Positions 8,562-12,900 of a DNA stretch of 64,000 nt are shown here, one piece after another. The DNA lies in contig CANMZT010000004.1 in assembly GCA_947502405.1 (NCBI GenBank), positions 266,006 to 330,005 of the forward strand, given 5' to 3'. Origin of the DNA: an uncultured Algibacter sp. GTDB lineage: Bacteria; Bacteroidota; Bacteroidia; Flavobacteriales; Flavobacteriaceae. A program made the translations under genes and the position numbers. The notes below the pieces were generated by a model. It made no database searches and was not told where the DNA came from. It saw only the letters and a program-made list of their open reading frames with translations. Within the stretch, counting starts at the first letter, position 1; every line of letters begins with the position of its first letter.

Positions 8562-8589
8562 TATAGATGTTTTTTTAACCTAAAACTTG
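8562..8589 (-). promoter_or_regulatory. putative ECF-sigma promoter CAAGTTT-N12-ACATCTATA (variant), upstream of YHYH gene
   Basis: Minus strand GCGCAAGTTTTAGGTTAAAAAAACATCTATA; same 12-nt spacing as the four other copies. Confidence 0.55.
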
Positions 8590-8605
8590 CGCTTGGTTTA
8601 AAAAA

Positions 8606-9673
8606 TTATTCCCTATGCCTTTGGTTTCGATTTGGTCGAGGCAAATTCTTTAGTTCAGACTCAACTAAAAACTCATCATTATTTTTATCAAGCTCAGAAA
8701 ACCTAAAAGCTAAAGGTCCTTTAGCTTCAACTTTAGAAATTTTCCCGTCATTATTGGAATCCATACGCTCAAATAGTTGGGTTAAATTTGGTCTACCTCG
8801 TCGTTCATTTATTGCTGCTTCTCCCATTAAACACCTACTTACATACGGAAACTCATTAGTTACCAAATACATGTATTTATTATTAATGGTGATTCCATTA
8901 CATTCATCTAAATCACCCAAACCTTCAATATATTCAAAATCTGAAGTATATGTACCATCATGATGCCCTCCAACAGATATGTCTCGAGTATTTCGTCTGG
9001 TTTCATAAGTACAATCCTCTCCTTCACGATTACCATCGATTAATTTGTAACTTGGTTTATATCTTCCACTTTTTGAATAATACATCGGGAATCCATCATG
9101 CGCAAAACCTACATGCACTAAATCATCACCTGAATCAAATTTTTCAATAACGGAAGTTGGGCTTCCATGATAATGATAAGCCCCTGTTGGTTGTACATGA
9201 GCATTATTAAAGTCTAAGCCTAAATTTACTAGCTCCTGAAAAGCTTCTACACGATAGTTTTCACCCGTATCACATGCTACAACCTCTGCTGTTCCGGGTT
9301 CAAACTTAACACCGTTTAAAGCGACTCCCGGTTCTCGAACCCATTGAGGATTCCCGGTATATTTTGGATTTACAGGAAAATTGTACGTTCGTTTTTGAGC
9401 AGAAATTGTATTCGGATTTCCGGGACCAGGAAACTGTCCTGTTTTATGATTTGGTAAAGCATTAGTTACCATTATTCTTGTATTATCTTTTATTTTGACT
9501 GATGTATTTGTTCCATAATTTTCATCATTTAGAATATAATCCGCAAAATAACCCGTGTGGTGATTTGAATTAATCTCATTATGATTATGATTATGATGAC
9601 TATGGTGAGCCAAATTTTTATTGCTATTGCAACTAATAGCAAGCAAACAGATAACTATATATGTATATTTCAT
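8606..9673 (-). CDS. YHYH domain protein with His-rich N-terminus and EF-hand-like C-terminus
   Basis: HHSHHNHNHNEINSNHH; GAYHYHGSPTS; DSNNDGKISKVEA and DKNNDEFLVESEL EF-hand loops. Confidence 0.82.
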   Translation of the reverse strand: MKYTYIVICLLAISCNSNKNLAHHSHHNHNHNEINSNHHTGYFADYILNDENYGTNTSVKIKDNTRIMVTNALPNHKTGQFPGPGNPNTISAQKRTYNFPVNPKYTGNPQWVREPGVALNGVKFEPGTAEVVACDTGENYRVEAFQELVNLGLDFNNAHVQPTGAYHYHGSPTSVIEKFDSGDDLVHVGFAHDGFPMYYSKSGRYKPSYKLIDGNREGEDCTYETRRNTRDISVGGHHDGTYTSDFEYIEGLGDLDECNGITINNKYMYLVTNEFPYVSRCLMGEAAINERRGRPNLTQLFERMDSNNDGKISKVEAKGPLAFRFSELDKNNDEFLVESELKNLPRPNRNQRHRE

Positions 9674-9697
9674 TATTAAAATTTTTAGCTATATATA

Positions 9698-9725
9698 TTA
9701 AGATGCATTATTAGAGAAAAACTTG
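9698..9725 (-). promoter_or_regulatory. putative ECF-sigma promoter CAAGTTT-N12-GCATCTTAA
   Basis: Minus strand ACAAGTTTTTCTCTAATAATGCATCTTAA, 24 nt upstream of 9673 start. Confidence 0.7.
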
Positions 9726-9740
9726 TGTTTTTAAACAAAA

Positions 9741-9764
9741 AAGCTTCGTTTGTACACGAAGCTT
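9741..9764 (-). terminator. terminator hairpin after CotH gene
   Basis: AAGCTTCGT-ttgtac-ACGAAGCTT. Confidence 0.6.
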
Positions 9765-9790
9765 AAAAAACAACTCATTCAAATCTTTAC

Positions 9791-11248
9791 TTATTGATTC
9801 AAATATGTGTTCACTGCAGAATTACGAGAAACCACATGATTCTTTAACTGATTTATAGCTGTTTGAAAATCAGCACTAGAATTCAAAAATGTGTAACCAT
9901 CTATTTCTGATGTGGCATACTGCTCAATTAAAGCGGCATATGAATCATAAAGTGTTTGTATACTAATAGCATTAAAAGGACCATCAATCACTTCTTGTAA
10001 ATATGCATCATACTTTGCCTTATAAACCTCATCTTGATATAAATATCCAATCAATGGCCATTGAGACGATGAAATATTTGAAAAATCCAAATTGGCAGAA
10101 CCCTGTCTTTTTCCTTCTTGAAGCGCCTCATTATTGTCCCATGGAATCCATGTTAGTTTGTTAGATTCAGGATTATTGTATAAATAATAATTATGTGTCA
10201 TACGTCCATAAGTATCCCAGTTTTGAATAACCGTATTAACCGCTAAATATTTTAAAAATACATCGGTATCAAAAACAGCTTCCAAGTTAGTTCTCCAGGT
10301 AGCCGCATCAGTTGTCCTGATATCATCATGTATTGCAGCTAATAATGCCTTTACATCCGAGAAGTCTGCTTCATCCTCATTGGTTTTCTTCACATATTCA
10401 TCTTCGTTATAAGTTCCAGTGGCAAAACTCGCTGCATCACCATCTGGTTTGTATAAATTCCCATCATCATTTATAAATTGTGTATCTAAAACACTACCAT
10501 CTACCTCTTCAACTAATGTATAAAGCCCAAAGTACTTAGGACCTTCTCCATAATCCACGTAAAGTGTGTAAAATGCTGTATGAGAACCCACTAATCCAGA
10601 ATTCCTAAACACATCACCAGCTACTTTTTCACGTAACATAGATCTATCGTCAAAGTTATTTTTTAGGCTAAACTTCTTAAAACCATAAAAGCGTTGGTTG
10701 TCTATCTGCGGATAATCATCTTCAAACTCATCAAAATCCAATTTAAATGATAATTTCAAAATACCGTTTCTCCAACTAGATTGCAAACTAGAGTTTCCTT
10801 TAAAACGAACTCCAACTCGATACCATTGTTTACCTCCGTAAAACACTTCAGCAGGAACAAATATTGGATCTTCATCAATTTCGGTTAAACCTCCACCTCC
10901 TGGTCTTCCACCACCAGAACCAAAAGTTCCGTAATTATCTGTCATATCGTCTAACATGCTTTTCCAACGCGCTTCTGTAATTACTATATCTAGCCTTTTA
11001 ACCGTATTATCTTCAAATACTTCATCAAAATTAGGATCTACATCTTTAGTGTGTGTTTCTGTAGTCCAATCTGTAGCTTCAAAGTCTTTATCGTCAATTT
11101 CAACTTCTTCCTCTTCTTCCTCCTCCTCTACCTCAACAATAATTTCTTCTGTTGTAGCATCTTCTTTACTACATGCTATAAGCGCTACTAAACAAAATAC
11201 TAGTAACGATGTTTTTACCATTACTTTAAATAAATTAACCATCTTCAT
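9791..11248 (-). CDS. CotH kinase family lipoprotein
   Basis: VRFKGNSSLQ..., SLKNNFDDRSMLREKVAGDVFRNSGL, NWDTYGRMTHNYYLYNNPESNKLTWIPWDNNEAL. Confidence 0.88.
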   Translation of the reverse strand: MKMVNLFKVMVKTSLLVFCLVALIACSKEDATTEEIIVEVEEEEEEEEVEIDDKDFEATDWTTETHTKDVDPNFDEVFEDNTVKRLDIVITEARWKSMLDDMTDNYGTFGSGGGRPGGGGLTEIDEDPIFVPAEVFYGGKQWYRVGVRFKGNSSLQSSWRNGILKLSFKLDFDEFEDDYPQIDNQRFYGFKKFSLKNNFDDRSMLREKVAGDVFRNSGLVGSHTAFYTLYVDYGEGPKYFGLYTLVEEVDGSVLDTQFINDDGNLYKPDGDAASFATGTYNEDEYVKKTNEDEADFSDVKALLAAIHDDIRTTDAATWRTNLEAVFDTDVFLKYLAVNTVIQNWDTYGRMTHNYYLYNNPESNKLTWIPWDNNEALQEGKRQGSANLDFSNISSSQWPLIGYLYQDEVYKAKYDAYLQEVIDGPFNAISIQTLYDSYAALIEQYATSEIDGYTFLNSSADFQTAINQLKNHVVSRNSAVNTYLNQ

Positions 11249-11908: not shown

Positions 11909-11910
11909 AA

Positions 11911-12231
11911 TTAATTATTTAAAATAGAAGTATCATCATCACTAACAGATAAACCATAAGACTCTGCAAACTCACTAATATTGGCTTCATAAGCAGATGT
12001 CTCTTCAAGTTTAGTAAATGCAATAACATTTAAAACCACAACACACAGCAAAGTTGCTAGTTGTAGTTTTGGCGTAAACCAAGACCATACAGTTTGCACC
12101 TCCTCTTTTTCAGTAAATAAAACATTCATAGTTTTATCCTTAAAAAAAGGCGATACGTTAACCTTTTCTATACTTTCTAAAACATTTAAAGTTTCGTCAA
12201 TTTTGTTTTGTATGTTTCTATCTCTGTCCAT
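11911..12231 (-). CDS. small membrane protein, probable anti-sigma factor
   Basis: Directly downstream of sigma gene; one TM (LQLATLLCVVVLNVIAF). Confidence 0.55.
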   Translation of the reverse strand: MDRDRNIQNKIDETLNVLESIEKVNVSPFFKDKTMNVLFTEKEEVQTVWSWFTPKLQLATLLCVVVLNVIAFTKLEETSAYEANISEFAESYGLSVSDDDTSILNN

Positions 12232-12239
12232 ATCAAATA

Positions 12240-12267
12240 TTTAGATGCAACAAATTTTAAAAACTTG
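12240..12267 (-). promoter_or_regulatory. putative ECF-sigma promoter CAAGTTT-N12-GCATCTAAA
   Basis: Minus strand GCGCAAGTTTTTAAAATTTGTTGCATCTAAA between sigma stop and anti-sigma start. Confidence 0.7.
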
Positions 12268-12269
12268 CG

Positions 12270-12848
12270 CTAATAATTGTTTTTATAAAAATTCTCTAAA
12301 AGCTTCTGTAAATTCTTTTTTGCACGAAACATTAAAGACTCCACAGAACTCACACTTTTCTCAGTAATATCACTAATCTCTTGGTAACTTTTTCCGTCCA
12401 CTTTATGCAAAGTAAACACCACTTTTTGCGATTCAGGCAATTGATTTATGGCATAAAACAGCGTCTCACTTTTTTCTTTATTCTCTAAAATAATCCCAGG
12501 ATGATTCATCTCTGTAAAATAACTAGTTTTATCTACTGGAATCTCATTTCCTAAAATCGATTGCATAAATCCAAACCGCTTTTTCGTATTGCGTTTCCTA
12601 ATAAATTCCAAACATTTATTGGTTGTAATTCTATAAATCCAAGTCGATAATTTAGAATTCCCCTTAAACTTCCCTATAGAGTTAAACACCTCCACAAACA
12701 CCTCTTGCGCAATATCTTCGGCATCTTCTTTATTTGGCACAAACGAAATACACGTGGCAAAAACCTTCTGCTGAAAATCATCCAGCAACTTACCATAAGC
12801 ATTAGCGCTATGGTTACGTAATTCCACTATAAATTCGTTTTCCGTCAA
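12270..12848 (-). CDS. RNA polymerase sigma-70 family (ECF) factor
   Basis: NKEDAEDIAQEVFVEVFNSIGKFKGNSKLSTWIYRITTNKCLEFIRKR; sigma4 YQEISDITEKSVSSVESLMFRAKKNLQKLL; TTG start. Confidence 0.92.
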   Translation of the reverse strand: MTENEFIVELRNHSANAYGKLLDDFQQKVFATCISFVPNKEDAEDIAQEVFVEVFNSIGKFKGNSKLSTWIYRITTNKCLEFIRKRNTKKRFGFMQSILGNEIPVDKTSYFTEMNHPGIILENKEKSETLFYAINQLPESQKVVFTLHKVDGKSYQEISDITEKSVSSVESLMFRAKKNLQKLLENFYKNNY

Positions 12849-12872
12849 ATACCTAAATTAAACCTCTATAGG

Positions 12873-12900
12873 TTTAGATGCTTAAAAAAATTAAAACTTG
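12873..12900 (-). promoter_or_regulatory. putative ECF-sigma autoregulated promoter CAAGTTT-N12-GCATCTAAA
   Basis: Minus strand GCGCAAGTTTTAATTTTTTTAAGCATCTAAA upstream of sigma gene. Confidence 0.75.

Follow-up and report, generated by a model that had tools for sequence, protein, structure and literature searches.

The sigma factor locus and its motif

The 64-kb window analysed here (positions 266,006-330,005 of contig CANMZT010000004.1, assembly GCA_947502405.1) comes from the 3.79-Mb genome of an uncultured Algibacter sp., a marine member of the Flavobacteriaceae, and contains an extracytoplasmic function (ECF) sigma factor gene together with five copies of a bipartite motif, the candidate promoter of its regulon. 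Coordinates are those of the window, and features lie on the minus strand unless stated otherwise. The sigma gene (12270-12848) encodes 192 residues from a TTG start, with Sigma70 regions 2 and 4 only. The Sigma70_r2 and r4_2 matches, a TIGR02937 score far above the cut-off and the length of about 190 residues place the product among the ECF (group 4) factors. The linked anti-sigma gene and the promoter of one spacing common to its own operon and its targets, also expected of an ECF factor, are present in silico.

Five exact copies of CAAGTTT-N12-RCATCTWWA are found at 12900-12873, 12267-12240, 11302-11275, 9725-9698 and 8589-8562, all on the minus strand, where an earlier sequence-only reading of this DNA had placed them. 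They are called P1 to P5 below. The 12-nucleotide interval is exact in all five and three extend to GCGCAAG, both as that reading described. It also put each copy upstream of a minus-strand gene. The orientation stands, but P5 is not directly before the YHYH gene assigned to it, as a 32-codon open reading frame lies between. The motif carries CATCTAAA and not the housekeeping TAnnTTTG at -7, a difference that had been noted correctly. No further exact copy is present in the 64 kb.

By a first-order (dinucleotide) model built on the window, 0.0012 exact matches are expected per 64 kb on both strands and 0.07 in the whole genome. A chance origin is rejected, with five copies in the window against about 0.001 expected. 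The genome-wide total is six: the five window copies and a site on contig 8 that lies 27 nucleotides upstream of the start codon (ATG) of a sulfatase lipoprotein gene. Frequent copies at random positions in the genome, which the sequence-only reading had said would speak against a regulon, are not seen. The extended consensus CRCAAGTTTT-N11-RCATCTAAA has seven sites in the genome with one mismatch or fewer, followed by a gap. These include a near-exact seventh site on contig 11, 24 nucleotides before the gene of a 211-residue exported protein. The regulon is thus predicted to extend beyond the locus, to the sulfatase gene on contig 8 and the small exported protein gene on contig 11.

At three mismatches the extended consensus is no more frequent in the genome than its reversed control. 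Because a three-mismatch search of the window also returns chance-level counts, sites are counted with at most one mismatch, or at most two at the fixed places before the sigma and anti-sigma genes. Reversed motifs serve as controls; reversed sequences are unsuitable for the dyad search because reversal preserves dyads.

Distribution of the motif in relatives

Among 301 family genomes, 35 carry a clear ortholog of the sigma factor (63-99% identity, after which identities fall below 50%). The exact core, CAAGTTT-N13-CATCTAAA, has 93 matches in 36 of the 301 genomes. Carriers of the sigma gene account for 87 of these, in 30 genomes, and six non-carriers have one each. The motif is therefore present in 30/35 carriers vs 6/266 non-carriers (Fisher p=3e-30). 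The reversed core gives five matches in all 301 genomes. In the two non-carrier genomes inspected, the matches overlap coding sequence.

The window, 34 loci from the family search and 80 from named genomes make 115 loci, which reduce to 99 distinct sigma loci. Allowing two mismatches or fewer, every one of the 99 has the motif upstream of its anti-sigma gene, and 47 have it upstream of the sigma gene. With one mismatch or fewer, the N13 spacer yields 349 coding-strand sites, while the remaining spacer lengths between 9 and 18 each yield 0-10. Only two sites are on the opposite strand, and the reversed motif is absent. The YHYH block is divergent from the sigma gene in three loci, and the motif is turned along with it in two of these. 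The motif matrix is R-C-R-CAAGTTTT ... R-CATCTAAA. An A eight positions after CATCTA, 6-7 nucleotides past the -10 box, is found in 89% of downstream-gene promoters and is a plausible start site. Position, single spacing and fixed orientation argue that the motif is a promoter and not a symmetric operator.

Outside the Flavobacteriaceae, the class and phylum also contain more distant relatives of the sigma factor (44-52% identity). Fourteen such loci contain eight sites, each on the strand of the sigma gene, that fit CAAGTTT-N13-C(A/G)TC(A/T)AA with one mismatch or fewer, against one site for the reversed control. These sites precede the sigma gene (L230), the anti-sigma gene (L220, L232) or the gene of a neighbouring Spy-like exported protein (L222, L224, L227, L228, L230). 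Genome-wide, exact matches to the relaxed pattern are at background level in these 14 genomes, so the signal there is confined to the locus. These positions make the sigma factor, the anti-sigma factor and the Spy/CnrX-like proteins the core shared across the phylum. The CotH/YHYH/EF-hand set is seen in Flavobacteriaceae only.

Promoters and products of the locus

P1 (12873-12900), the promoter of the sigma gene, reads CAAGTTT-N12-GCATCTAAA. In the 47 loci that have it, its distance to the TTG start is nearly always 51-61 nucleotides. The sequence-only reading expected autoregulation, as is usual for ECF factors; P1 bears this out for the present genome, and fewer than half of the ortholog loci follow it. 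On the sigma tree, which was built quickly and has many weakly supported forks, autoregulation requires 10 changes by parsimony and at least three when strongly supported branches are counted. Three Winogradskyella loci (L166, L168, L173) retain a sigma promoter in which the spacing has changed or a box is damaged. Among the sigma genes that lack the motif, a strict search finds an intact TAnnTTTG pattern in only 8 of 52. Autoregulation appears to be lineage-variable and the anti-sigma promoter invariant. Negative feedback would for this reason be the fixed part of the wiring.

The TTG start codon of the sigma gene is present in 99/99 orthologs, and this conserved weak start might restrict sigma synthesis. 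The second ECF gene of the window, at 2320, also starts with TTG. A perfect inverted repeat, TAAACCT-ATAG-AGGTTTA (12859-12876), starts inside the -10 box of P1. Most close relatives have perfect arms of 7-8 nucleotides in the corresponding position, and these covary (CCT/AGG vs CTT/AAG). The repeat is clade-specific: Winogradskyella-type promoters lack it, and other clades either lack it or show a longer loop. In the sigma promoters of L115, L118 and L128, about 65-75 nucleotides are inserted downstream of the -10 box, ahead of the sigma start; these insertions carry the repeat AAGCTTTCATCAAAGC...GCTTTGATG and could be a small mobile repeat.

P2 (12240-12267) precedes the anti-sigma gene. In the window its -35 box lies just past the sigma stop codon and its -10 box is 8 nucleotides upstream of the ATG. 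Across most loci, 5-12 nucleotides separate the end of the -10 box from this ATG, which predicts an anti-sigma mRNA with little or no leader. In Flavobacterium psychrophilum only 5.5% of mRNAs are leaderless (PMC9723704). Seven scattered loci (L069, L084, L136, L151, L174, L176, L183) have about 88 extra nucleotides between the promoter and the gene, which places the promoter about 90 nucleotides before the ATG. The sequence TAGCGAAY is common to three of these seven. Rfam gives no match in the window or in four relatives tested for this stretch.

The product of the second gene (11911-12231) is a 106-residue anti-sigma factor candidate with two predicted cytoplasmic helices, one transmembrane helix and no Pfam match. 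The sequence-only reading described this gene as both anti-sigma-like and Spy-like. The first half of that description agrees with its short, single-span product; the Spy-like part belongs to a separate third gene. The structural model places helices at 3-21 and 28-40 and the transmembrane helix at 54-91, with low confidence (predicted local distance difference test, pLDDT, 63). Residue N68 of the transmembrane helix is invariant in 100% of orthologs. A class I (ASDI) zinc anti-sigma factor is rejected, as the Hx3Cx2C signature is absent from the 106 residues and Pfam gives no match. Class I factors accompany only about 6% of Bacteroidota ECF factors (PMC7406223).

The third gene (11372-11908) encodes a membrane-anchored, periplasmic CnrX/Spy-like sensor candidate of 178 residues, with a Pfam Metal_resist match below the cut-off. 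Foldseek comparison of its AlphaFold model (pLDDT 84.7) with the PDB gives CnrX or NccX for each of the 15 best matches, with CpxP and Spy ranking lower. These matches have a probability of 1.00 and TM-scores, normalised by target length, of 0.6-0.8 (up to 0.82). N18 in the transmembrane segment is invariant (100% of orthologs). H66 is conserved in 95% of the sensors, M70 in 86%, H119 in 69% and C127 in 79%. All four occur together in 40 of 99 and could make up another site.

A terminator-like hairpin of the intrinsic type (11335-11359) closes the sigma unit. P3 (11275-11302) then precedes the gene of a CotH-family lipoprotein, of the secretory kinase fold family (9791-11248; PF08757, 9e-71), followed by another terminator-like hairpin (9741-9764). 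P4 (9698-9725) serves the gene of a YHYH-domain protein with a C-terminal EF-hand (8606-9673; PF14240, 6e-52; EF-hand_6). P5 (8562-8589) heads a unit that encodes a microprotein, a YHYH-domain lipoprotein (7603-8406; PF14240), a MORN-repeat lipoprotein (7033-7602; PF07661) and a SCO1/SenC protein (6354-7055; PF02630, 4e-28); the order of the last two genes is conserved. A terminator-like hairpin follows SCO1 (6266-6298). The hairpins after the sensor gene, cotH and SCO1 split the locus into units that each start with a motif copy, and most predicted units are matched. No terminator-like hairpin was found between the P4 and P5 units.

The microprotein (MKIKKKPLVVIILIIVIIILILNVVLICNLCN; 8438-8536) is a previously unlisted 32-residue protein with a single transmembrane segment and no Pfam match. 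Its 32-codon reading frame is missed by ordinary size limits and begins 25 nucleotides after P5, a spacing typical of the remaining promoters. The fifth site would thus serve the microprotein first and the YHYH gene after it. Homologs of 23-68 residues occupy the same position in 22 loci, the window included. Leu-Asn is found at the same position, the end of the transmembrane segment, in 22/22. The pN/pS ratio (nonsynonymous to synonymous differences) is 0.23-0.62 in four groups, values that are approximate because pS is near saturation in some of them.

In relatives, the genes directly behind the motif encode EF-hand, YHYH and CotH proteins, VTC polyphosphate polymerase followed by DUF4956 and DUF2490, and CCP/MauG di-haem peroxidases. 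EF-hand proteins, with 83 linked reading frames, form the largest group that has no homolog in the window. Away from the locus, the motif precedes genes of the sulfatase (3/3 genomes of the genus), a second CotH protein with a secretion tail, YHYH proteins, PAP2-family proteins and di-haem peroxidases. Most products have a signal peptide or lipobox, judged by eye, which points to exported or envelope proteins. In L074 (5321-6675, plus strand) and L069 (VTC gene at 9083-9847, minus strand), VTC and DUF4956 genes behind the motif form one unit with CotH. The VTC unit would tie polyphosphate chemistry to the sigma regulon.

A second ECF gene (2320-2868) and a putative anti-sigma gene occupy 2320-3421 on the plus strand of the window and face the locus. 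In L063 and L069 this second pair is followed by a third gene, which encodes an exported Spy-like protein.

Proposed regulation and comparison with known systems

The motif is very probably the promoter of the regulon of the ECF factor at 12270-12848, as the sequence-only reading proposed. This is supported by its co-occurrence with the sigma gene, its position, spacing and orientation in 99 loci and its persistence beside sigma relatives at 44-52% identity. Sequence and comparative evidence shows the sites themselves, their strict spacing, orientation and position, co-inheritance with the sigma gene, the conserved anti-sigma promoter and the predicted sensor fold. We infer that the sigma factor reads these sites, that the 106-residue protein is its anti-sigma factor and that the CnrX-like protein is the sensor. 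CAAGTTT-N13-CATCTAAA would supply the -35 and -10 elements of the core promoter for RNA polymerase with this factor. In the resting cell, sigma would be held by the single-span anti-sigma factor, itself controlled by the anchored periplasmic protein, until a periplasmic signal sets it free. Free sigma would then transcribe its own gene from P1 and the anti-sigma/sensor pair from P2, an obligatory negative feedback. It would also transcribe the genes of CotH, the YHYH/EF-hand protein and the microprotein with YHYH, MORN and SCO1, and, at a distance, those of the sulfatase lipoprotein and the small exported protein.

Several results weigh against this reading. Five sigma carriers have only sites with one or two mismatches, and about 17 ECF-like matches in the genome represent factors that could share the promoter. 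The 106-residue candidate has no match to CnrY in a profile comparison, and its identity is suggested by gene order, topology and a model of low confidence (pLDDT 63). The Foldseek E-values of the sensor are modest, from 3e-3 at best to 3e-2. The metal ligands of CnrX are H42, H46, E63, H119 and M123. Only H119 has an aligned histidine, in 69% of the 99 sensors, and positions 46, 63 and 123 are mostly occupied by other residues.

Fixed-spacing bipartite motifs can also be operators, and the usual promoter of Flavobacteriaceae is the TAnnTTTG of the primary sigma factor (PMC9723704). An activator or repressor could in principle bind the motif while transcription starts from separate TAnnTTTG promoters. 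This is highly improbable: the halves are neither inverted nor direct repeats, and the orientation is fixed (349 to 2), so the operator reading is rejected. The -10-like box, which in most loci ends 5-12 nucleotides before the anti-sigma ATG, leaves no room for another core promoter, and TAnnTTTG occurs anywhere within 120 nucleotides in only 14 of the 47 autoregulated sigma promoters. Hardly more credible is that these promoters are read, alone or jointly with this factor, by another of the genome's ECF factors, for example that of the 2320-2868 cassette. The genome offers about 17 such genes, and other bacteria are known to have overlapping ECF regulons (PMC9723704), but the motif tracks this sigma gene across genomes and adjoins it in 99/99 loci. 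Where the ortholog is missing, motif counts are at chance level, even in genomes with lower-scoring ECF paralogs.

A third alternative concerns the signal only and is a serious contender, judged slightly the less probable side of even. The third protein would be a chaperone of the Spy/CpxP type and not a metal sensor, and the regulon a general envelope-stress response to misfolded periplasmic protein. By sequence profile the sensor is closer to E. coli Spy than to CnrX (9e-5 vs 0.34), the motif precedes Spy-like exported proteins in other Bacteroidota families, and the CnrX ligands are not kept. Conversely, the protein is membrane-anchored, its gene is beside the anti-sigma gene as in CnrX, its fold ranks CnrX over Spy and CpxP, and the SCO1 and di-haem peroxidase genes of the regulon suit metal or redox themes. 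The signal of the proposed ECF switch is likely to be periplasmic and may be a metal, possibly copper in view of SCO1; misfolded protein is likewise considered.

The microprotein might be a membrane regulator of this switch that competes with or reinforces the contact between sensor and anti-sigma factor and tunes the response from within the regulon. This is unlikely on present evidence; it is suggested by the invariant transmembrane Asn, which resembles N68 of the anti-sigma factor and N18 of the sensor. A polar contact between the three transmembrane helices is a guess.

ECF factors are numerous in Bacteroidota, and very few promoter motifs for them are described in the literature searched. 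A search on combinations of YHYH, CotH and sigma found no description of this regulon (the main ECF group classification lay outside that search). The ECF regulon is of a known kind; its present form was not found in the literature searched. The promoter is precise enough to locate targets in any genome of the group, and it brings several families whose role is unclear (CotH, YHYH, VTC, EF-hand and di-haem peroxidase) under one signal. Sigma controls its inhibitor in every case and its own gene only in some, which makes the group a natural experiment on positive feedback.

The closest known arrangement is CnrYXH of Cupriavidus metallidurans, in which CnrH is the sigma factor, CnrY a class II anti-sigma factor and CnrX an anchored sensor. 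Both systems have three adjacent genes, one of them for an ECF sigma factor. CnrY is matched here by a candidate of about 100 residues for which a low-confidence model predicts two cytoplasmic helices and one transmembrane helix, and CnrX by an anchored periplasmic four-helix protein, whose predicted fold best matches CnrX and NccX. CnrY binds its sigma factor with two helices (PMC7406223). A CnrYXH-like switching mechanism is fairly probable. Unlike in CnrYXH, the gene order here is sigma, anti-sigma, sensor, the CnrX ligands are not kept except for H119 in 69%, and the anti-sigma candidate has no sequence match to CnrY. The targets are CotH, YHYH, EF-hand and SCO1 proteins and not efflux pumps; no efflux genes lie behind motif sites in this genome or the tabulated relatives. 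With neither a conserved ligand set nor an efflux gene under its control, the system is not classed as a member of CnrYXH.

The group of CotH, VTC and DUF4956 genes near Pel clusters of streptococci and clostridia (PMC7112168) is similar to the VTC-DUF4956-CotH unit behind the motif in several relatives. No ECF factor or promoter of this type is reported there, and the window has CotH only. SigP of Porphyromonas gingivalis (PMC4800418) is likewise a Bacteroidota ECF factor with a proposed target motif, but that motif is different, control is by PorX/PorY and the targets are secretion components. The SM6 ECF-type motif of F. psychrophilum, from the same family, was inferred with start-site mapping and has a sigma/anti-sigma pair among its targets (PMC9723704). 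It has a CGT box and type IX secretion genes, whereas the present motif has CATCTAAA and another gene set. The CGTC form of the present motif in other families resembles that CGT box (PMC9723704).

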